DNA of 64,000 nucleotides from Candidatus Nezhaarchaeales archaeon (GTDB lineage: Archaea; Thermoproteota; Methanomethylicia; Nezhaarchaeales; JAWCJE01): assembly GCA_038853715.1 (NCBI GenBank), contig JAWCJE010000007.1, forward strand, positions 1-64,000, given 5' to 3'. Both the position numbers and the translations under genes were made by a program. Of the stretch, positions 1-62,122 are shown in pieces; within the stretch, counting starts at the first letter, position 1; each line of letters starts with the position of its first letter. The notes beneath the pieces were generated by a model. It made no database searches. It had not been told where the DNA came from and was given only the letters and a program-made list of their open reading frames with translations.

Positions 1-543
1 AAGACGTACATCATCGAACCGCTGTACAAAGCGCTTCAACAGCGCGGTTACAGGGTGAACCTATACGTAACGCCTAAGGGAACCGCGACAAACTATGGAC
101 GTTCCAATAACGATTACTACTATATCATGGTCTGCGCTAAAGCTGACATAAAGCGCCTCCTAGAGAACGTTGAGCCAATTCTTTCACATAAACGGCTTAA
201 GGCGTTACTAATCAAGCACGCCTTAAGGGATCCTAGCAGGCCAGTGTACTGGAATACTATAGAACCAATCTACAGCGAGATTAAAGCCGTTCGCGAGGAA
301 ATGCTGAGGGAAAGCAAGTTCATCACAAAGAGCCTCCATGAGGTGTTGCAAGCGCTGACAGAAAAACGTAAGCGAAGGGAGATCACGTATACACAGTACG
401 AGGAAGAAAGTGCTCGGCTTAGAGACAAGACGTGGAGGACACTTGAAGAGGTCAAGAAAAAGTACGATGAAAAGTTTAAAGAACTTGAAAAGCGAATCGA
501 GGCTTACTTCCGAGCCCGAAAGCCCCGTGGACTATCTCCATAG
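1..543 (+). CDS. LAGLIDADG-like protein with coiled-coil tail, 3' part only
   Basis: The frame is open from base 1, so the gene begins before the window; the GTG at 55 is internal. The first 80 or so residues (YYYIMVCAKADIKRLL, then a run of basic and leucine residues) resemble the second half of a LAGLIDADG homing endonuclease or DNA-binding fold; this family call is tentative. From about base 300 the protein is a charged helix, probably a coiled coil. Bases 397-526 are closely similar to 55061-55189, but carry one extra base near 510, so the last residues (FRARKPRGLSP) are out of frame relative to that copy, which reads FEPESP. After base 526 the sequence becomes a cofH fragment on the other strand. 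The 3' end is therefore probably broken and the gene may be dead. Confidence 0.5.
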   Translation, partial: KTYIIEPLYKALQQRGYRVNLYVTPKGTATNYGRSNNDYYYIMVCAKADIKRLLENVEPILSHKRLKALLIKHALRDPSRPVYWNTIEPIYSEIKAVREEMLRESKFITKSLHEVLQALTEKRKRREITYTQYEEESARLRDKTWRTLEEVKKKYDEKFKELEKRIEAYFRARKPRGLSP

Positions 544-718
544 GCGAGAAGGCATGTATATGAATGCCCGGCGCCCTCTTCTTTACTTCGCGGCATATCG
601 CCACGTAGAAATCGGCATCGACACGCGGATGGATCCCGCCCTGTATACATACCTCGGTAGCACCCATCCTTAAAGCTTCCTCAGCTCTTCTAGCCACCTC
701 ATTAACGCTTAAAAAGCC
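527..718 (-). pseudogene. cofH: cofH (FO synthase subunit 2) fragment
   Basis: Read on the minus strand, about 60 codons match the middle of the radical SAM enzyme CofH: a piece reading GATEVCIQGG and, further on, HIHAFSPMEI, both very typical of CofH/MqnE-type enzymes. The full family is about 350-400 residues, so roughly one sixth is present and the radical SAM CxxxCxxC cluster motif is absent. A stop lies just upstream of base 718. At about 526 the similarity ends and the tail of the LAGLIDADG-like gene begins. CofH makes the deazaflavin part of coenzyme F420. This remnant shows the lineage carried such a gene or an extra copy; it says nothing about a functional one elsewhere. Confidence 0.7.
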
Positions 719-13507: not shown

Positions 13508-14099
13508 GCCTCGTTCCAAGCCTTAAGCTACTCCTCTACATCGTTAAGCCCTTCGTCGCATTCTCCCTTCTATTTCTCCAACTCCCCATAGATTCCTTTA
13601 GGCTTCTTATAGTATTGATATTCTCCACGAGTAAAGCTTAGAGGTTCACGGTTTCCGGCGCACCTTCATCCCCATGGAGGTTGAAGCGTTCCTCTATGGT
13701 TTACTCGATAGCCTCACTACCTCCTTAACGCCTATAGCGACGTGCTCGGGTTTAAACCTATCCTTAAGCCCCACGTTCTCAATAAGTCCAATAACCCTTT
13801 AAGCCTCATACATTAAGATTTGCCTCTTCATATGTCTAAGTATTTGACGTAAAGTTTTAGATCTTTGCTGGACGACTTGGCTTGTTCAGCCTGAGGGAAA
13901 AACGATGAGGATGGAGAAATATTCAAGCATTCGTAGTGTAGCTCATTCTTAAGCTAATAGCTTTTTTCTAATATCATCTGCGCCATCTTTTCTGCTATAC
14001 CCCTACATTTGATAGGCTTAGTGGTTGAACATTTTGTAAGCTGAACCTTCAGCTTTTTCATTAGTTGAGCCTCTGATTAAAGTTCTAATTAAGGGCTTG
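13508..14099. other. gene-free stretch with coding-like debris
   Basis: About 590 bases without an intact gene. On the minus strand, roughly 13696-13885, one frame reads coding-like for about 60 codons (pieces such as QQRSKTLRQILRHMKRQILM and FKPEHVAIGVKEVVRLSS) with one in-frame stop. The composition resembles a real protein, but I do not recognise it. Nothing else is evident. Confidence 0.3.
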
Positions 14100-25888: not shown

Positions 25889-26563
25889 TTGGGTGCATCC
25901 CTAATGGAGGGTGGCGGTGTTTCAACGGTTGAACGTAAAGCCTACGAACTACTATATGAGCATTTAAGGAGCGCTTACGAAGCCTTTAGGCTATTAAGCT
26001 TAGCGGTGGATAGCTACCTAAGCGGTAAGGTCGACGAGGTTAATGAGTACGCCAATAAAGTGAAAAACATAGAAACGAAGGCCAACGATTTAAAGCGTTC
26101 CATCTACGAGTACCTAGCTAAAGCGGCACCGGGCCTACTCTACCGTGAGGAATGGCTTAGGTTTCTCTTCGACCTCGATAGGATAATTGACGTATCGGAT
26201 GGTTTAGCCGTAAGGGTTGCCATAGCCGCTAGTAAAGGTTGGCTTCCCCCCGAAAACATAGCTACAGCTTTAAGGGAGCTAATTGAGGTTACCCTACATA
26301 TCTGTGAAAAACTTAAGGAGGTTTTCCATACCTTCGCCTTTAACGCTGAACGCGCGTTAACTTTATGCCGCGACATAGAGGTTCAAGAGGAAGGGATAGA
26401 TAGGCTGCATAGGAGGTTAAGCTCGTTAATCCTTGAAGCCCATATGTCTATACCTTTAACCTTAATCCTTAGGGATATAGCTGAACGTATAGAAAACGTA
26501 TCAGACTTAGTAGTAGACGCTGTTGAAGACCTCAGGGTCCTATCACTTCGTAGGATTACCTAG
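25889..26563 (+). CDS. PhoU-like DUF47 protein
   Basis: A 224-residue all-helical protein of the DUF47/PhoU-like group, which in archaea and bacteria often accompanies inorganic phosphate transporters and is thought to regulate them. Supporting stretches are KVKNIETKANDLKRSIYEYL and the late DIAERIENVSDLVVDAVEDLR, which carry the repeated acidic metal-binding pattern of PhoU helices. No Pit or Pst gene is next to it. The frame opens with TTG at 25889; the ATG at 25904 is an equally good start. Confidence 0.82.
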   Translation: MGASLMEGGGVSTVERKAYELLYEHLRSAYEAFRLLSLAVDSYLSGKVDEVNEYANKVKNIETKANDLKRSIYEYLAKAAPGLLYREEWLRFLFDLDRIIDVSDGLAVRVAIAASKGWLPPENIATALRELIEVTLHICEKLKEVFHTFAFNAERALTLCRDIEVQEEGIDRLHRRLSSLILEAHMSIPLTLILRDIAERIENVSDLVVDAVEDLRVLSLRRIT

Positions 26564-26617: not shown

Positions 26618-27646
26618 TCAACTCAACTTAATGGTTGAAAGCAGGTCTGATGCATAGTAAACCGTGAAAATACCAGTAACGATCACTGTAAACCAAACAG
26701 TAACGATCCTGGTTAGAATGGTGGCGAGCGAAGCCGGAGCTTGAGGGATCCCGAACGCCATGAAGGTTGAGGTCATTGCGAACTCCAAAACCCCCATCAT
26801 AGCAGGTATACCCACCGGGATAAGGGTAATAAGCCCGTAGAGCGGGTAAGCCGCCGCCACCACGTAGAACTCCACCTGGTAACCTATAGCGTAAAAGACT
26901 GTGAAAGGTATTAGGATCCCGGTAAACCACTGAAAGAAGAGCACTATAAGCGCTAAGAATAGCATCCTACGCTTACGGAATATAATCCTAGCCCCTTGAT
27001 CGAAGCTATCAACCAGCTTAAGGGCTGCATTAGTTAAAGTATTTCCGCCTTTAAGCCTATCGATAAGCCTCGTTAACCTAAATATGAGCGGGCTTACGCG
27101 TTTAACGTTAAACGATACGTAAAAGCCGAGTACGCAGATGATAATGGATCCGCCGATCATAACGGCGTAGCCAGCTTGAAGCGGTGTTGACCCCATCGTT
27201 AGTTGCGCGTAGGTTAAAACGGCGAAGGCTAAAAGGACGATGAAGGCGACCGCGTTTAATAGGCGGTGAACTATTATGGAGAGCGTAGCTTTACCGGTCT
27301 CAATACCCATCTTACTTCGAGCTAGAAAAAGCCTAAACGCTTCACCTGTTAAAGACCCAGTGGGTATTAGTATATCGCCGAAAATACTCACCAAGGAAAC
27401 AGCTAAACACTGATTAAACCTAACTGGCGTGTTAAGACCTTTAAGCACCACGTACCAGCCTACGGCGTAAAGCAACATGAAGAATACGGACTCTAAAAAA
27501 GCCAATAAACAAAGGGTTAGGTTAGCCTCAGAAAACATACCTAGCAGGGCTCCAATGTTAAATACGTAAATGTAGGCGGCTAAGAAGCCTATCCCAAACA
27601 CCGTGAAGAATACTGGTTTAGCTCTGAAGCCCCTCCTTACCTTCAA
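26618..27646 (-). CDS. UPF0104/AglD-like membrane protein
   Basis: A 342-residue integral membrane protein with eight or so hydrophobic segments, of the lysylphosphatidylglycerol synthase transmembrane region (UPF0104) family. Members include flippase-like and AglD-related proteins linked to lipid-carried sugars in archaea. Supporting motifs are GDILIPTGSLTGEAFRLF and a late LIPVGIPAMMGVLEFA. A 96-base part of this gene (26982-27077), coding for the cytoplasmic loop RLKGGNT to FDQGARI, is duplicated at 55242-55336 immediately before the DNA ligase gene. No glycosyltransferase is adjacent. Confidence 0.85.
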   Translation of the reverse strand: MKVRRGFRAKPVFFTVFGIGFLAAYIYVFNIGALLGMFSEANLTLCLLAFLESVFFMLLYAVGWYVVLKGLNTPVRFNQCLAVSLVSIFGDILIPTGSLTGEAFRLFLARSKMGIETGKATLSIIVHRLLNAVAFIVLLAFAVLTYAQLTMGSTPLQAGYAVMIGGSIIICVLGFYVSFNVKRVSPLIFRLTRLIDRLKGGNTLTNAALKLVDSFDQGARIIFRKRRMLFLALIVLFFQWFTGILIPFTVFYAIGYQVEFYVVAAAYPLYGLITLIPVGIPAMMGVLEFAMTSTFMAFGIPQAPASLATILTRIVTVWFTVIVTGIFTVYYASDLLSTIKLS

Positions 27647-28491: not shown

Positions 28492-28848
28492 GGGTACGCC
28501 ACCCCCTCTTAGGAAGGGGTTTAAACCCTAACCCCGGCAACATATTCAAAGCTTGAGAATAACCAGAATTAAGCTCTTCCTTAGCTAAAAGCCGTTAAAA
28601 TCTTTGCTCTATTTTATCGTCCAATCGTAACCGGCTTTTGCATCTTAGCCTTTTCTTGTTCTGCTATTTGTAGGGAGTTTCGTACTCCTTTAACATCTTA
28701 ACCATGGGGTTTTCTAGGTTAATTTTGTACAGTTTAACGGCTTCACTCAACCTAGGTTCATCGGCTACGAACTTCTTACGTTTCTAACTCCGTTGAACCA
28801 TTCCTTGAAACCGGGGATTTAGGCTCGGAGACTTACCAACCCCGTTCA
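28492..28848. other. gene-free stretch with decayed coding remnant
   Basis: On the minus strand, bases 28667-28783 are open for 39 codons and coding-like (pieces FVADEPRLSEAVKLYKI and ENPMVKMLKEYETPYK) between two stops. I do not recognise the parent. The rest of the stretch has no recognised feature. Confidence 0.3.
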
Positions 28849-29046
28849 TTATAGGCTGCTAGTACTACGTACACTTCTTACCTTCTTCCTCGGGGCCGTC
28901 TTACTTTTAACTAGTTTTTCAAGGGCTTTAACTACTAACCGTCCCTTCTCCGTTAGCCCTATCCCTTCTCCTTTAAACTCTATATAGCCTCCCTCCATAA
29001 GGTCGGCGAGAAGCAGTATCGCCTTTATCGTATCTCCGCCTCCCAT
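28849..29046 (-). CDS. small winged-helix-like protein
   Basis: A 65-residue open frame starting at ATG. The middle, GGYIEFKGEGIGLTEKGRLV, followed by a helix, resembles the strand-wing-helix end of a winged-helix DNA-binding domain, and the C-terminus is strongly basic. An in-frame stop lies seven bases before the ATG, so the full winged helix (which would need about 20 more residues upstream) is not encoded. It may be a small regulator, or the remaining end of a broken one. No partner gene is evident. Confidence 0.45.
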   Translation of the reverse strand: MGGGDTIKAILLLADLMEGGYIEFKGEGIGLTEKGRLVVKALEKLVKSKTAPRKKVRSVRSTSSL

Positions 29047-46243: not shown

Positions 46244-46655
46244 TGTGCCTCGAAGGTTGAACCAGTTAAAGGAAGATCCGAGTTACACTTAGAGGCTCGT
46301 TCAACTTAAACTGGTTTAGAGGCATACGTATCCTACCTCAGATGCTTGTAGGGTTCGCGGGGTGAATGATGGATAAAGCGTTAAGGAGAGACGATAAACA
46401 TGGGGAAGAAGGCCTTAAAGTCCCTCATTTTAAGTGTAAGCATGGCGTTATCAGTTTGCCGGCTTTACCTATAAGCTTCTTTACATTTCCCATAGCTTAG
46501 GCCTAGAAGTTCTCCTTTTTCCTTGCCAAGCCTTCATCATGTCAAGCTACGTTGAACTAGCCATAGCTATGGGCGTATGGTCCGCTTAAAACAGCTTAAA
46601 CATCAAAAAAGTTTAAAACATCGGGCCCCCCTAATCATAAGGAGGCCTTCCCCTA
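46244..46655. other. intergenic stretch before the pilus region
   Basis: About 410 bases without a gene. Its right end holds the promoter of the next gene: AAAGTTTAAAAC near 46610 and a GGAGG ribosome site at 46641-46645. A 44-codon frame at about 46370-46500 is probably chance. No recognisable RNA. Confidence 0.3.
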
Positions 46656-48539: not shown

Positions 48540-51144
48540 AGGGCTAAGTACCCTTGTAGGCTCAATCGGCTTAATCCTAATACTAGGATTAGCCACCACC
48601 TTTCTTACCACTACGTTTTTTGAGTATACGCGTTACATGGACACCGTAAGGAGCGTACAAGCTATTGAGGCGTATAGGTTAAAGGAGAGCTTAGAAGGCT
48701 TCTACAAGGAAGCCACGAATAATACGCTTAACGTAAGCTTTACCAACAACGGCCCGGTGGATTCACTTATAGATTACGTGTACGCGTACTATGAAGGCCG
48801 TCGTGAAGTTTCAGTAATAGGACTTAACCAGCCTCTTCGTAGTGGTTCAACCATAACCCTTAACTTAACGGGGCTAAACGCCGTTAACGATGACAACCTT
48901 ACGCTTAAAGCCGTAACCAGACTAGGCAACGTAGTACTTTTAAAGCGTAAGACGAACAATGATAACCCCTCCAACCCAAAGGTTAAGGAGGAGCCAACCA
49001 ACCCTATCTCGAAGCCATTATACCTAGAACTCGATAAACCGTTTTCAGCCGTTTCCGTGGCTAATGCCTCATCCCCGCCTAAGACGCTTCTACTTTCACC
49101 TTCAGGCCCGATAGTTATATGCGCCGACTGGTCTTCAAGGGTGTATTGGAGCTACTGGGTACCAAGAGGGGAGGTACCATCCACCGCTGGCTTAACCTAC
49201 ATATCTGAGGACGGTAAGTACGCGTTCACTGTTTCACAGCAAACAATGCAGCCCTCAGGGCTTTACTTAATGTACTTCATTGACGGGAACTTAGTATGGG
49301 TTGACTTCATAAGTATACCTAGCCACCTCCTCCACCTCCCAAGCGCAGTTATGAACAAGAAGGTAGGCACCGTTTACCTCGCGTATTACGACGGCTACCT
49401 CCTAAAGGTTAAGAGGTACCTATGGTCGGCGGCTAGCCTAGAAATCGTACTCACCCAGCTACCCGTAACGGGTAGGTTAAACCTAACCTTAAGCGGAAGC
49501 TACCTAGCCGTTAGCGGCGGTATTAGCCTAGGACGTGTAATCCTAGTGAAGGATGAGGGCAGTACGCTTAAGGTATTAAGCACGATAGACGTCACCGATC
49601 AAGTACCCGCTGGAATGGCTCAAGCTAGCTATAGCTTAACCGACGTTAACGAAGCGGCCGATTTAATGGTAGTAGCTAGCTACTATACTTCACCGAAAAC
49701 CTATACGCGTATAGCGGCGTTTAAACTCTCTAACCAACGCCTACTTTGGGTGGCTAGATCTTATCCATCAGGTCGTCCAACATCGTCCTCAATAGGAGGC
49801 TACGTAGCCCTCGCCTACGATAATGGCGTAGTTGAAGCCTACGATCCGATTGGAGGAGCTAGGCTTGGAACCAGGAACGTTGGTTACAACACATTAAAGG
49901 TTAGAGACGGTGTCATATATGCTCCAGGCTGTGCTCTTAACCATAAGCTAGAAGAGATCATCAAGGTAACCCTACCTAGACAGTATACCGGCATGGATGT
50001 AGCTAGCGACCTTTCAACGGTAGCGGTAGGGATGACCTCAGGAGCAGCTTGGATACCGGCGCCAGCATCATCCTTTAAACAGAGCGGCTTACAACTATCG
50101 GTTGACTATACGTGGAAGCCCCTATACATCGATACGTTTGACGGCTCATGGGTTGAAGGCGGCTACGATGACGAGAAATGGATCGGTACGTCAAAGTCCT
50201 ACGCCTATTGCCAAGAAGGCTCGCTTAAATTCTACTCCCCACCTAGTTCGGGGGCAACGTGGTGGATACGGTCAAAGCGTAACTGGGGTAAGGGCGTCTA
50301 CGTCTTTCCAATCGAGGTACTCCAGCTAGCGGTACTAGCTCAAAACCCAGATTACTGGGGGGGATACCCAAGGACGTACGACGTAATCCCCTACTTCACC
50401 GTAGGCAGCCATAGGGTTTACTTAAAATTCACCATCGAGCGAACCTACATTTACTGGGGAGGAAGGGCTTTTGAAGCCTTTATCGAAAAAGTATACCTCC
50501 ACCTCTTAAGGTGGGGAAGCGAGGTTGGACGCGCCGAAGTCGTCTCCTACGGCCCCTATGAGACGTGGGGTGCGTCCGAGGAGGCACCTTACAGGGTTTA
50601 CAATATGCGGAGTGGAACTCTAACCTTTAAGGCTACAGATTCCGGGGTTGAGGTTACCTTAGCGGGGTATTGGTATAGGCTAGGCTCAAGCATGGGGTAT
50701 AAGGTAATTACGTTAAGGGACTCATATCCATATCAGCCGGGCCCCATCAACGTGGATTTGTTCTTCACACAGGATATTTATCGCTATGGGCCTCCCTATG
50801 GAAAGCTGGCCTTATCGTTAGCATGCGTAAGGGTGGATGAAAGCAGTGAAACGCTTTCAGCGGCGTTTAACGCCCCAGTCTACGCCTTGGATGATGGCCT
50901 CCTAGCGGTAATCCCCAGATACCCCGCCTACCTCTACGATGGGGTGCAGAAATCACTAAAGATCATAGTGCCGAAAAACCTACAATCAACACTACTAGTA
51001 AGGGTTGATGGCGCCACCCGTAGACAAATAGCTTTAAACGTGGAACCCTACGACGCTAACAACTACGCAGTCATCATCGGGGAACGTGATATAGTTAGTG
51101 GCTCAGCCGAGTCAACGTGGCTCCTCTACTTAAAGCGAGGCTAG
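48520..51144 (+). CDS. giant pilin-like surface protein with propeller and lectin-like domains
   Basis: An 874-residue protein. It opens with a class III signal, KRCKGLSTLVGSIGLILILG, then a pilin-type helix to about residue 35. Residues about 170-520 contain repeated strands (PSGPIVICADWSSRVYWSYW, GVIYAPGCALN) that look like a beta propeller. From about 540 a region beginning DTFDGSWVEGGYDDEKW resembles concanavalin A-like lectin/DUF1349 domains. No C-terminal anchor is seen. It is likely a pilus-tip adhesin: a normal pilin stem carrying a large binding head. Confidence 0.7.
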   Translation: MASKRCKGLSTLVGSIGLILILGLATTFLTTTFFEYTRYMDTVRSVQAIEAYRLKESLEGFYKEATNNTLNVSFTNNGPVDSLIDYVYAYYEGRREVSVIGLNQPLRSGSTITLNLTGLNAVNDDNLTLKAVTRLGNVVLLKRKTNNDNPSNPKVKEEPTNPISKPLYLELDKPFSAVSVANASSPPKTLLLSPSGPIVICADWSSRVYWSYWVPRGEVPSTAGLTYISEDGKYAFTVSQQTMQPSGLYLMYFIDGNLVWVDFISIPSHLLHLPSAVMNKKVGTVYLAYYDGYLLKVKRYLWSAASLEIVLTQLPVTGRLNLTLSGSYLAVSGGISLGRVILVKDEGSTLKVLSTIDVTDQVPAGMAQASYSLTDVNEAADLMVVASYYTSPKTYTRIAAFKLSNQRLLWVARSYPSGRPTSSSIGGYVALAYDNGVVEAYDPIGGARLGTRNVGYNTLKVRDGVIYAPGCALNHKLEEIIKVTLPRQYTGMDVASDLSTVAVGMTSGAAWIPAPASSFKQSGLQLSVDYTWKPLYIDTFDGSWVEGGYDDEKWIGTSKSYAYCQEGSLKFYSPPSSGATWWIRSKRNWGKGVYVFPIEVLQLAVLAQNPDYWGGYPRTYDVIPYFTVGSHRVYLKFTIERTYIYWGGRAFEAFIEKVYLHLLRWGSEVGRAEVVSYGPYETWGASEEAPYRVYNMRSGTLTFKATDSGVEVTLAGYWYRLGSSMGYKVITLRDSYPYQPGPINVDLFFTQDIYRYGPPYGKLALSLACVRVDESSETLSAAFNAPVYALDDGLLAVIPRYPAYLYDGVQKSLKIIVPKNLQSTLLVRVDGATRRQIALNVEPYDANNYAVIIGERDIVSGSAESTWLLYLKRG

Positions 51145-52822: not shown

Positions 52823-54565
52823 ATGGGTGCTACCTTAATGCCCCTCGCCATTAACAAGGGGAAGAGTAAACGCGTATCACTAATTATAACCGTTAAGGGC
52901 AAAAAACGTGTTAAAGCCAAGCTACCCAGTATAGGGGTAAAGGATAGGATTATTAACGTTATAGCTAATAGCTTCCTAACTAGCTACATCCTTCACGCTA
53001 CCTACCGACATTTAAAGCAGACGACGCTAACCATAACACCATACTCCTACGCGATTAAAGCGTCCAGCTTCACGTTAACGGCCGCGGCCGCTGCTACAGC
53101 GTTATCGATTGCCCTCCTCCTTAACCAGGGCGGCTTAATACCGCTACTGATCCCACCTTTAACGATGGCCTCCATCCTACTAGTAAGCCTAGCAATACCT
53201 AGGGTGTTAACGTTTAAGCGCGCTAAAGGAGTCGAAGAGGAGCTTCCCTTCTTCGCTATCTTAGCGTCGGTCTTCGTCGCTTCAGGCCTCTCCATCCTCA
53301 GGGTTTTTAACGCCTTAACGAACTGTACCTTCCTAGGTAGTATGAGGCTAGAATCCCTACTCATTAGGAGGGATTGCCTAATTTCCGGCTCTAACCCGCT
53401 TCAAGCCTTAGAGGACTCCGTTAAACAGCATCCTTCAAACACGTATAGGGAGCTACTATTAAGCTATACGTCGGTTTTAAGGAGTGGAGGCGACGTAGTT
53501 AGCTTCCTAAACGGGAAGGTTCAAGAGCTTTTAAGGGCTGTTGAAAGAAGGTGGAAAACGTATGCTTCAAGCATGTTTCTAATCGGCGACTTAATTTTAG
53601 CGTTATTTCTAGCGGCCCCCCTCATGCTTTCAATGTCGGCTTTAGCCCTTGCAACGCCAGTAGCCATGGGGTTCGTGGATCTATACAGCTTTACCATCAT
53701 ACCGATGTTAACCCTCACATCCATAACCTTAATCCATATCTGGTCTCCTAAAACGCGTAATAATTACGCTAATCCAACGAGGACCTTTATCGTGGCTACG
53801 TTAGCCATGACGTTAGTAGCAACGATACTAAGGTTTACGATTAACCCGCCGCTCCACATAATACTGCCCGTAAGCTTAACGGCTTTCTCCATCCCCTTAA
53901 CCATCACTTCATGGGCTAGGATAAACAACGTCTCCAACATCGAAAGGGCGTTACCGGCCTTTCTAAGGGACATAACGGAGTATAGGAAGATGGGTCAAGA
54001 CCTTAAACGCGCGATATTAACGCTCGCGCAACGCCGCTTCTACAATAAACACTTCAACGAGCTACTTAATAACGTCGTGAAGCTTTTAGGTTTAGGCATA
54101 CCCTTTAACCGTTTAGCATCGTTAATGGATACGCCATCCTTCATGGCTAGGGTGACATTCTTCATCCTAGCCCATATGGCTGAAACAGGTAGCGATACAC
54201 CCATCCTTTTAGAGTCTTTAACCAGATCCATGGATAACTTAAAACAGGCTAAAGAGCAGGCTAAAGCCAACTTGAAGCTACAGATGATAATAGGATACCT
54301 AGCCCCCGTAATAGTCATAGCGAGCGTCTCCCTCCTCTTCAACTTCATCAAGGACGCCTCAGTAATCCCTACCCTAATATTTGACGCGGCTAATCCAGCG
54401 CTCATAAGGGTGCTTTTAGAGAAGGTTAAACTAGCTGTAGCCTTCTCATCAGTCTCCATAGGCCTATTGATAGCTAAAGCTTCAGATGCAACCCTCCATA
54501 GCCTACGCCACCTACTTGGCTGCCTAATAAGCTACATAGCGGCTTTAACCGTTTTCCCGGTTTAA
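52823..54565 (+). CDS. pilus assembly membrane platform protein (GspF/FlaJ/TadC-like)
   Basis: A 580-residue integral membrane protein with two GspF/T2SSF-type halves. The first contains EEELPFFAILASVFVASGLS and the second ERALPAFLRDITEYRKMGQD, each followed by hydrophobic segments. It is the platform that couples to the ATPase. Family members of the archaeal type (FlaJ, TadC) are about 450-580 residues. It ends the pilus operon; no prepilin peptidase gene is present in the window, so that activity must come from elsewhere. Confidence 0.88.
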   Translation: MGATLMPLAINKGKSKRVSLIITVKGKKRVKAKLPSIGVKDRIINVIANSFLTSYILHATYRHLKQTTLTITPYSYAIKASSFTLTAAAAATALSIALLLNQGGLIPLLIPPLTMASILLVSLAIPRVLTFKRAKGVEEELPFFAILASVFVASGLSILRVFNALTNCTFLGSMRLESLLIRRDCLISGSNPLQALEDSVKQHPSNTYRELLLSYTSVLRSGGDVVSFLNGKVQELLRAVERRWKTYASSMFLIGDLILALFLAAPLMLSMSALALATPVAMGFVDLYSFTIIPMLTLTSITLIHIWSPKTRNNYANPTRTFIVATLAMTLVATILRFTINPPLHIILPVSLTAFSIPLTITSWARINNVSNIERALPAFLRDITEYRKMGQDLKRAILTLAQRRFYNKHFNELLNNVVKLLGLGIPFNRLASLMDTPSFMARVTFFILAHMAETGSDTPILLESLTRSMDNLKQAKEQAKANLKLQMIIGYLAPVIVIASVSLLFNFIKDASVIPTLIFDAANPALIRVLLEKVKLAVAFSSVSIGLLIAKASDATLHSLRHLLGCLISYIAALTVFPV

Positions 54566-54648: not shown

Positions 54649-54858
54649 TTGGACGTTTCGCGGATACACCCATTCGGCTTAATGATCTCGCTACACTTTG
54701 AAGCAATAGACACAGCGATGATAATGCTACTGGTGCTAGACGGATACGTATGGGGCGTAATATGTGAAGGATGTAGGCGTAGGTATCACGGCGATAAGCC
54801 GTTACTCGCGTGGAACGAGTACGAGGAAGCGATGATAATGATAGGTGAGCCGCCGTGA
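54649..54858 (+). other. possible small open frame of unknown function
   Basis: A 69-codon frame from TTG, or from the ATG at 54682, containing a CxxC (VICEGCRRRYHGD) and an acidic end. The composition is coding-like, but it lies in debris and I know no family. It may be a real small gene or a piece of one. Confidence 0.3.
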
Positions 54859-55060
54859 CGCAACCATCCCTCTACGCTTTTCTAAACGGGCAGCGATCTA
54901 TTGGCGGAGCGGCTATGCCTACTTTTCGCCGAACGCCTCCATGAACCGTTAAAAGAGTTCCTAGAGAAAAATACGTTACACTCTAAGCTCGTTAAGGCCT
55001 TCACGAGGCGTGGCGTTCCCTTAACGGAAGCGTAAGCGAGGGGAGGTTAACGTAAAGCGT

Positions 55061-55240
55061 TACGAGGATGAGAAGGCTAGGCTTAGAGTCGAGGCTTGGA
55101 GGGCTCTTGAAGCGTTAAAGATGAAATATGATGAAAGGTTTAAAGGGCTTGAAAAGCGTATTGAGGCTTACTTCGAGCCCGAAAGCCCCTTAGTCCTTAA
55201 GACCGCGGCCACCTTACCGGCTTCCACTCCTTTGGCTTAG
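55061..55240 (+). pseudogene. degenerate copy of the LAGLIDADG-like protein's coiled-coil tail
   Basis: The frame reads YEDEKARLRVEAWRALEALK and on to LEKRIEAYFEPESPLVLK, ending with a stop near 55240. It matches the tail of the gene at 1-543 (bases 397-526). The upstream frame has stops at about 55033 and 55050, so no long protein is encoded. It lacks the extra base found near 510 in the other copy. Confidence 0.6.
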
Positions 55241-55241
55241 A

Positions 55242-55336
55242 GTTAACGAGGTTTATCGATAGGCTTAAAGGCGGAAATACTCTAATTAATGTAGCCCTTA
55301 AGTGATCGATAACTTCGATCAAGGGGCTAGGATTAT
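55242..55336 (+). repeat. duplicated fragment of the UPF0104 gene
   Basis: Ninety-five bases matching the minus strand of 26982-27077 at 88 of 96 positions with one base missing. The piece spans RLIDRLKGGNT to FDQGARI in the parent protein. Both edges are sharp: bases before 55242 and after 55336 show no similarity to the parent. The right edge lies inside the ATG of the ligase gene. Confidence 0.85.
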
Positions 55337-57140
55337 GCTTTACTCAAAGCTGATTAACGCTTATGAGAAGATAGAAAGTACTACTAAAAGGCTTGAAATA
55401 ACCGATATACTCGTTGAACTCTTCAAGCAAACACCGCCGGATACTATAGATAAAGTGGTCTACTTAACCCAAGGTAAACTATACCCGGATTTCGTCGGTG
55501 TGGAGCTTGGTATGGCTGAGAAGCTAGCTATGAGGTCGATCGCTGAAGCTGTAGGCGTCCCCGTGAAAATCGTCGATGAAACCTTCAAGAAAACCGGCGA
55601 TATAGGGGTTACCGCTGAAACTATATTAAGTAGGAGGAAAACCGTTTCACTTCTATCCTTCATGGCTGAGAGGAAGTCCGAACCCTTAACGGTGGCAAGG
55701 GTTTTTGAAGCACTAGATAAAATAGCTAAAGCATCTGGGGAGGGGGCTCAAGAAGCCAAAATCTCACTTCTAACAGGGCTTCTTAAGGAGGCATCGCCTA
55801 AGGAGGCACGATACATACTGAGAACGGTAACCGGGAAGTTAAGGTTAGGAGTAGCCGATATGACCATCCTCGACGCCTTAGCAGTAACATTTTGCGGAGG
55901 GAAGGATCAAAGACCACTAGTTGAAAGAGCCTATAACCTTTCAAGCGACCTAGGAGCGGTGGCTAAGGCCGTAGCAGGTAAAGGAGTGGAAGGCGTTAAG
56001 GAGTTCCAGATAACCATCGGTAAACCCATAAGGCCTATGCTCGCGGAACGCTTATCCACAGCCGAAGAAATCCTTGAAAAGCTAAACGGTGTCTGCGCCG
56101 CCGAATATAAATATGATGGGGAGCGCCTTCAAGCACATAAGTCTAATGGTAACGTAATACTGTTTTCGAGGCGGCTTGAAAACATAACCAACCACTACCC
56201 AGATGCCTGCACCCTTATAAGGGATCACATTAAAGCCTACGAAGCGATAGTCGAATGCGAATGCGTAGCCATAGACCCAGATACGGGTGAAATGAAGCCC
56301 TTCCAGGAGTTAATGCACAGGAGGAGGAAGTACGGCGTCGAGGAGGCTATGAAGCTATTCCCAGTAACCCTCTTCCTATTTGACGTCCTCTACGTAGACG
56401 GCGAGGACTTAACGTTAAAACCGTACTACGAGCGTAGGAAGAGGCTACTAGAAATAGTAGAGGAAACGGAGAGGTTTAAGGTAGCTGAAGCTAAGAAGCT
56501 GGAAACACCGCAGGACTTAGAGAAGTTCTTCGAAGAGGCGGTAGCTGAAGGTTGTGAAGGCCTAATCTGTAAATCCTTAAGCCCCGACTCCATATATCAA
56601 GCTGGGGCAAGGGGTTGGCTATGGATAAAGCTAAAAAGATCCTACCAATCGAAAATGCAGGACACCGTAGACCTAGTCCCAGTGGGAGCCTTCCACGGTA
56701 GGGGTAAACGGGCTGGGACGTACGGCGCGCTATTAATGGCCGCCTACAACCCCGATAACGATACCTTCGAAACCGTATGTAAATGTGGATCGGGGTTTAG
56801 CGATGAAGACCTAGCATCCCTCCCCGAACTCTTTAAGCCCTACGTTATCCCACACCCACATCCAAGGGTTAACTCTAAGATGAAAGCGGATGTATGGTTC
56901 GCTCCGTATAAGGTAGCTGAAGTATTAGGTGACGAGATAACATTATCCCCGATGCATACCGCGGCCATGAACGCCGTAAGGGAAGGCGCAGGCCTCGCCA
57001 TCAGGTTCCCAAGGTTCCTTCGCTGGCGGACAGATAAAGAGGCTGAGCAAGCAACCACATCCCTCGAGCTCGTAGAGCTTTATAAAGCACAGTTAAAGAA
57101 GATATCCGAAGAAGCACCAGGTGAAACCCAAAGGACCTAG
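55335..57140 (+). CDS. lig: ATP-dependent DNA ligase
   Basis: Seals nicks in DNA during replication and repair. It is 601 residues from the ATG at 55335, the family's usual length; a longer frame from 55302 adds IDNFDQGARI, which is derived from another gene and not native. The N-terminal DNA-binding domain includes DKVVYLTQGKLYPDFVG. The adenylation motif is KYDGERLQAH with the catalytic Lys, and later motifs CECVAIDPDTGEM and GCEGLICKS are clear, with the OB-fold at the C-terminus. AAGGGG lies about 8 bases before the start. Confidence 0.95.
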   Translation: MLYSKLINAYEKIESTTKRLEITDILVELFKQTPPDTIDKVVYLTQGKLYPDFVGVELGMAEKLAMRSIAEAVGVPVKIVDETFKKTGDIGVTAETILSRRKTVSLLSFMAERKSEPLTVARVFEALDKIAKASGEGAQEAKISLLTGLLKEASPKEARYILRTVTGKLRLGVADMTILDALAVTFCGGKDQRPLVERAYNLSSDLGAVAKAVAGKGVEGVKEFQITIGKPIRPMLAERLSTAEEILEKLNGVCAAEYKYDGERLQAHKSNGNVILFSRRLENITNHYPDACTLIRDHIKAYEAIVECECVAIDPDTGEMKPFQELMHRRRKYGVEEAMKLFPVTLFLFDVLYVDGEDLTLKPYYERRKRLLEIVEETERFKVAEAKKLETPQDLEKFFEEAVAEGCEGLICKSLSPDSIYQAGARGWLWIKLKRSYQSKMQDTVDLVPVGAFHGRGKRAGTYGALLMAAYNPDNDTFETVCKCGSGFSDEDLASLPELFKPYVIPHPHPRVNSKMKADVWFAPYKVAEVLGDEITLSPMHTAAMNAVREGAGLAIRFPRFLRWRTDKEAEQATTSLELVELYKAQLKKISEEAPGETQRT

Positions 57141-60989: not shown

Positions 60990-61618
60990 CTAGGTTATTA
61001 GAAAAGTTATGATACGTTTAACCTTTTAGCTTTACGGTGGGCTTCGTGGACACGTTAAGCGGATGTATTGTAGCGCGTTATGTAACGTGTTTCCAGCTTT
61101 CACCTTAAAGTTTCATTAAATTAGTTTAAGCTTTCAATAGTTATCATGCACATGGGAAGGCTTAAGGCTGAGGTAAACGGAGGTATGCCGAGAAGGAAGA
61201 AAGGTTAAGAACCCTGCTTAGGCCGGGTAGGCTCGGGCGCGTCGAGCTTCATCATACCCTCCAGCTTCAACCCAGGTTAAGGCTGACACCCAAAGTCAGA
61301 GGCGTTCACTGAGGCTTTCCAGCGTTAAGAAGCATGATACTCTGAATGAATACTACATGCTTACAATACGCGTCGCAGCACGGCTACGCGGCGCGCTATA
61401 ACACAACCACAATACATATTACAGCACAACTACGCGCTTACGAGGCCACCTACATACCTTTAGACGCGATAAGTACTTATAGACCCTAAGCTTAACCAAG
61501 GCGCGTAACGTCACCTTAGCTATGAAGGACGCCGTTTAACAGTTTTACACTCTAAGTGGGCTATACACTCCTTTACGATTGGAGGTTTAATGGTTTTAGC
61601 CGGTAGCAACGTTAAACG
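60990..61618. other. long gene-free stretch
   Basis: About 630 bases. A locally GC-rich segment at 61170-61340 contains short inverted repeats (for example GGCTGACACCCAAAGTCAG), but I could not fit an RNase P, SRP or snoRNA consensus. A noncoding RNA is possible; otherwise it is degraded sequence. Confidence 0.3.
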
Positions 61619-62122
61619 CTAGTTTCCTTTTAGCTTAGCCTTCACATCGTTTAGGATCTTCGTTATATTACGCCAATGGGAGCCTAACCAGTAAACCTTA
61701 CCGCAGCCTCCACATACCCAGTATTCACGATAAACGCTATACGTCCTCGGCGGAACCCTACCGGCTACATCCTCCCTACCCGTTTTCGTTAGGGCTCCGT
61801 TACAGTTTGGGCACCTCGACCTTTCAATGTTAACTATGGGTTCAGCCTCCACCACTTTAAGGAACTCTGAAAGCCCGTCTACGACGCTAGCCCCCGAGAT
61901 GAGGATGACGCTTAAACCAAGCTTTAAGGCCTTCCTATACAACTCGACGTCCCGCGTTACTAATACGCGAGCCTCCTCCTTAGCGGCTTTTAAAAGGTCT
62001 TCGTCTTCAGCATCCTTAAGGTAGGACGCATCAAAACCGAGGATACGAAGCCATCGAGCTAGCTTCCCACACATCCCATCCAGTAGGAACTTGGTAGGTT
62101 TACCGGCCATGAGGCTATCCAC
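61619..62122 (-). CDS. Mut7-C RNase domain protein with zinc ribbon
   Basis: A 167-residue protein of the Mut7-C (DUF82) family, a PIN-like RNase fold with a zinc ribbon. The opening KFLLDGMCGKLARWLRILGF holds the first acidic residue, VLVTRDVEL another, and the ribbon is CPNCNGAL and CGGCGKVYWLGSHW. It begins at GTG 62122 with GGAGGAG seven bases before it, overlapping the pyrC stop by 8 bases; the longer frame to 62176 lies inside pyrC. A ribonuclease role is inferred from the fold. Confidence 0.9.
   Translation of the reverse strand: MDSLMAGKPTKFLLDGMCGKLARWLRILGFDASYLKDAEDEDLLKAAKEEARVLVTRDVELYRKALKLGLSVILISGASVVDGLSEFLKVVEAEPIVNIERSRCPNCNGALTKTGREDVAGRVPPRTYSVYREYWVCGGCGKVYWLGSHWRNITKILNDVKAKLKGN

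Follow-up and report, generated by a model that had tools for sequence, protein, structure and literature searches.

How did a piece of one gene's body come to lie directly 5' of a DNA ligase gene, and to end within its start codon? The question arises in a 64,000-nt stretch of the genome of an uncultured archaeon (the window, to which positions given without a contig refer; C1, C2 and so on up to C29 are contigs of the same genome assembly), in which an ATP-dependent DNA ligase gene (PF04675/PF01068/PF04679) occupies positions 55335-57140 of the plus strand. A preliminary description of this DNA regarded the upstream sequence as a clear case of a gene fragment taken up as a 5' region. The duplicated UPF0104 piece stands up to analysis; the self-contained case does not, since the gap upstream of the ligase holds a mosaic of which the piece is the final tile, and about 100 comparable pairs occur genome-wide. 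We propose that the ligase leader is probably, at roughly two chances in three, a by-product of microhomology-primed templated-insertion repair, acting in part at breaks induced by an endonuclease.

The ligase leader is copied from inside a UPF0104 gene

BLASTN within the window aligned positions 55237-55336 of the plus strand to positions 27081-26982 of the minus strand, with 92 of 101 positions identical (E=1e-33), and a search of the whole genome recovered this match at E=3e-32. For the slightly shorter segment that had been noted initially, 55242-55336 against 27077-26982 (minus strand), we reproduced 88 identities in 96 columns with a single deleted base; the seven substitutions are all transitions. 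The match scores 135 bits, as compared to at most 39.2 bits for the best genome match in 500 dinucleotide shuffles. On the ligase side the edge is as sharp as had been claimed: similarity stops within the start codon ATG at 55335, whose A and T are still covered, the T being the final base of the copied fragment.

The parent segment (26982-27081, minus strand) belongs to an intact ORF of 342 aa (26618-27646, minus strand; PF03706, E=5e-38) with homologues in relatives, in agreement with its earlier assignment to UPF0104. The copied residues (about 190-225) fall within full-length alignments of this protein to homologues in several relatives. The leader is thus a duplicated gene fragment, significantly similar to a stretch inside an intact gene and lacking the remainder, and copying from the UPF0104 gene into the ligase leader is the direction that the sequences support. 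Since the two copies lie on the same contig and are 9% divergent, an assembly k-mer artefact cannot explain the match.

The ATG at 55335 is backed by relatives, whose ligases align from this point and have start codons at the same place; by ligase, the closest named-genome relative is Candidatus Nezhaarchaeota (68%). A 612-aa frame that starts at the GTG at 55302 adds MIDNFDQGARI, and the parent frame reads VDSFDQGARI: as had been suggested, the fragment accounts for the false longer ligase frame, which is the parent's own. The candidate ribosome site AAGGGG has a calculated anti-SD pairing of -5.4 kcal/mol, weaker than the gene median of -6.1 and equalled by 37% of shuffled leaders, and is weakly plausible as such. 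The UPF0104 scrap may serve as a functional leader or ribosome site; it is best seen as the point where a chain of repair happened to end.

A mosaic between the TadC-like gene and the ligase

Upstream of the ligase lies a gene for a TadC-like/T2SSF membrane protein (52823-54565, plus strand; PF00482), and much of the interval between the two genes is composed, in this order and on the plus strand, of a deleted copy of a LAGLIDADG-type element, a scrap of a PLP-dependent decarboxylase-like gene and the UPF0104 scrap. The element copy is internally deleted, and consists of a 5' part at 54704-54860 (element positions 693-849, from the zinc-ribbon ORF) and a 3' end at 54989-55190 (element positions 1898-2102) with the constant terminus GCCCGAAAGCCCCT; the same deleted form is also present at C2:13276-13896. 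The PLP scrap (55187-55232, 46 bp) has its source at C9:9295-9340 (85%, E=3e-7), within a gene at C9:9177-10331 (PF00282, E=6e-38). Neither this scrap nor the 3' end of the multi-copy element, at 55028-55190, figured in the preliminary description. Where the element tile ends and the PLP scrap begins, the two have CCCTTA in common; between the PLP and UPF0104 scraps there is a 4-base gap without shared bases, which counts against the explanation that we favor.

Within the order, some relatives have the TadC-like gene directly 5' of the ligase, and two others have a single 240-aa gene between them. Comparison of ligase upstream regions, a check that had been suggested earlier, placed UPF0104 beside the ligase in no relative examined and revealed no clear equivalent of the gap sequence among them. 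The gap holds DNA copied from elsewhere in the genome; because an empty ligase site is not seen in any close relative, insertion and replacement are indistinguishable here.

Gene scraps in intergenic DNA genome-wide

The whole genome was compared with itself, genes being delimited by simple ORF calling rather than by a gene finder, and multi-copy families, long matches and assembly artefacts were removed before pairs were counted. This yielded 100 low-copy pairs in which part of a gene body recurs in intergenic DNA (median 100 bp), and some of which may be ordinary decayed paralogues; in 84 of them, copy and source were on different contigs. Identities ranged from 69 to 100%, indicating a long-running process. 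When this genome was compared to the sole control, G007, which is of the same order and 67% complete, an equal-sized subset contained 46 pairs versus 4, matches elsewhere tiled 20.3% of intergenic bases versus 2.3% (all repeat families included), and abutting tiles from non-collinear sources numbered 143 versus 3.

At least 5 bases were shared at 20 of 54 good joins, as compared to 7.4% by chance (P about 7e-10), a rate that presumes blunt joins and ungapped extension. With low-copy tiles alone, 9 of 23 joins did so (P about 2e-5). Overlaps between chained scraps were often 5-19 bp. Sharing at joins is thus above chance genome-wide, and at the ligase site it is seen at one join and replaced by a gap at the other. 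The clearest chain, at C23:856-1066, unites three sources, C14:38704-38733, C10:48159-48224 and C10:52908-53041, of which the first two are joined via GTTTGATCC and the last two via CTTATCCAGC. Scrap edges showed no preference for start codons, with 6 near starts as compared to 6.4 ± 2.2 under random placement.

Other intergenic scraps in the window are found at 13659-13787 (source gene C4:64731, 89%), 28771-28875 (C4:4308, 78%), 46312-46368 (C10:36198, 84%) and 61536-61637 (C17:29152, 90%). Two gene pieces in the window appear to have given rise to scraps elsewhere, 26476-26562 to one at the start of a 493-aa gene (C28:9071-9157) and 49547-49625 to one next to radA (C1:103408-103484). Mostly intergenic repeat families were also observed, namely a 101-bp repeat with terminal inverted repeats GCTTTGTGGCTTAATTA in about 20 copies, a palindromic family of 60-70 bp (TTGCAAAACTC..GAGTTTTGCAA) and a further family of about 170 bp, which are spread over C1, C2, C11, C13, C20, C22, C23, C25, C29 and other contigs. 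Assembly artefacts that imitate repeats take the form of 127-bp identical contig ends and of 127 bp-100 N-127 bp duplications, at sites such as C3:14397-14752 and the contig ends of C5, C9 and C12-C15.

A putative LAGLIDADG-type element and the repair genes

The element measures about 1.56 kb; besides a zinc-ribbon ORF, it encodes a protein of approximately 430 aa. This protein matched no Pfam family and had no significant sequence match in the PDB. Its structural model, whose mean pLDDT is only 64, displays the order H-E-E-H-E-E twice, that is, two alpha-beta-beta-alpha-beta-beta halves, and the best Foldseek matches are the LAGLIDADG proteins bI3 maturase and I-AniI (E 1e-4, probability 1.00, low TM-scores); the sequence includes the motifs AHTDGSV and ITIDAEGSV. 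This low-confidence model thus shows a pair of LAGLIDADG domains folded in the typical way, and we predict that the protein is a putative LAGLIDADG-type endonuclease.

In the genome, 46 profile matches to the element were detected, many of them fragmentary, and most copies have one 3' end in common. No relatives of the element were present in 39 other genomes of the class; in a sample of the phylum, weak partial matches were found in 7 of 397 other genomes, and near-full-length copies occur in this genome only, among the 398 sampled. A pattern search of named genomes and viral contigs gave no hits. The window contains a second copy at 1-527 (plus strand), which corresponds to the C-terminal part of the LAGLIDADG-type protein and whose 5' side is outside the window. 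Its 3' end is adjoined by a 195-bp scrap (521-715, minus strand; source C9:44929-45123, 91%) of what we take, from its translation as read by eye, to be a CofH-like radical-SAM gene. Scraps within 100 bp of the element numbered 9, as compared to 2.0 ± 1.4 expected. The remaining 91 of the 100 scraps are not beside the element, which leaves the endonuclease no more than a contributing role; as a source of some of the breaks, it is plausible.

Profile searches of the genome revealed neither Ku (PF02735) nor reverse transcriptase (PF00078), which makes classical NHEJ and reverse-transcribed scraps unlikely. Loss of Hel308 was rejected as a cause, Hel308 being present, as was loss of Rad50, an idea that arose from a missing zinc-hook match: a NurA-HerA-Mre11-Rad50-like cluster is located at C13:17409-23614 and includes a Rad50-like ORF. 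In this ORF (C13:21491-23614) the zinc hook is not recognizable, unlike in most relatives of the order.

Proposed mechanism and alternatives

We suggest that a break occurred in the DNA between the TadC-like gene and the ligase, plausibly where a LAGLIDADG-type element is or was inserted. Repair would then have copied short stretches from unrelated sites of the cell's own genome, 46 bp of the PLP-enzyme gene followed by approximately 100 bp of UPF0104, moving from template to template at short shared sequences until the end was rejoined at the ligase. Closure of the break at the ligase start codon would have spared the gene, and would also be the reason why its upstream DNA is now UPF0104 sequence. 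The same repair process would have been repeatedly active across the genome.

The constant 3' end of the element copies, the gene scraps that adjoin several of them (window 521-715, C21, C22, C23, C24) and the presence of the internally deleted form at two sites would also suit a gene-capturing (Pack-type) transposon, which would have brought the UPF0104 scrap to the ligase site. The scrap is different at each element copy, however, and lies outside the conserved 3' end; most scraps are not near the element, and a non-exhaustive look showed no terminal repeat enclosing scrap and element. We consider gene capture unlikely. In short-patch illegitimate recombination, a single-stranded genomic fragment, from taken-up or lysed-cell DNA, anneals at short matches and is incorporated during replication, leaving short intragenomic patches with short matches at their edges. 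Natural uptake could provide such fragments, and the genome-wide tile and join statistics fit this process too, but chains of scraps require several events at one point, and the insertions described for it are shorter than the median of 100 bp measured here; we hold it to be quite improbable.

Prokaryotes do contain pseudogene remnants, and one could imagine that a UPF0104 duplicate near the ligase was eroded to 100 bp by ordinary decay, without any special process. This appears very improbable for a fragment with two sharp edges at 91% identity, flanked by another gene's scrap and by the ligase, in a place where the examined relatives have no UPF0104. A metagenome assembly artefact or a mixture of strains is hardly credible: although genuine artefacts exist in this assembly, as described above, the UPF0104 copies differ in sequence and are separated by 28 kb of a single contig, and artefactual pairs are 100% identical and were left out of the counts. 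Repeated templated-insertion repair accounts better than decayed duplicates or a faulty assembly for the sharp edges, the succession of several unlinked sources, the bases shared where scraps meet and the broad spread of ages.

Beyond the ligase locus, we tentatively put forward that, in this archaeal lineage, gene fragments from the genome itself may be copied continually, primed by microhomology, and may thereby supply much of the intergenic DNA, with the leaders of essential genes like DNA ligase included; breaks from an amplified LAGLIDADG element so far known only here would be part of the driving force. A prokaryotic genome in which about one fifth of the intergenic DNA consists of recognizable copies would be a natural archive of archaeal end joining. 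It would illustrate the origin of new 5' leaders, and of short protein extensions, from unrelated genes, and would link a selfish endonuclease to genome-wide remodelling. These hypotheses are testable by sequence comparison of sibling genomes alone.

Comparison with known systems

In a limited search of the open-access literature, we found no reports of such patchwork in archaea. The element resembles free-standing LAGLIDADG homing endonucleases in its predicted double-domain fold and its best Foldseek matches, and differs from them in the missing Pfam match, the tens of copies and fragments, their mostly intergenic location and the additional zinc-ribbon ORF. Short-patch double illegitimate recombination in Acinetobacter reportedly also joins intragenomic short patches at short matches in a prokaryote; its patches are said to be shorter and single, whereas those described here have a median of 100 bp and are chained.

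Patchwork templated insertions have precedents in animals and plants, where they mark error-prone repair of breaks. They have been described, under the name patchwork, for polymerase-theta end joining in helq-1 C. elegans and in plants, where short copied stretches are likewise chained at the repair site with short shared sequences at the joins (PMC8654963). Their templates mostly adjoin the break (PMC8654963), whereas the scraps described here come from across the genome; this archaeon has Hel308, and the search for Ku was negative. In vertebrates, capture of chromosomal pieces at breaks was proposed by Pace et al. 2009 for insertions of chromosomal DNA that are no shorter than 50 bp and reach a few hundred bp, among them pieces of UTRs and exons (PMC2671141); these are similar to our scraps in kind, but mostly closely linked on the same chromosome, while in this archaeon 84 of 100 lie on other contigs. 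Haloferax repairs breaks by microhomology-mediated end joining without Ku and with the involvement of Mre11-Rad50, and is thus comparable as an archaeal case of break repair via short matches; its described products are deletions and rearrangements (PMC7776575), whereas insertions of copied DNA dominate here.
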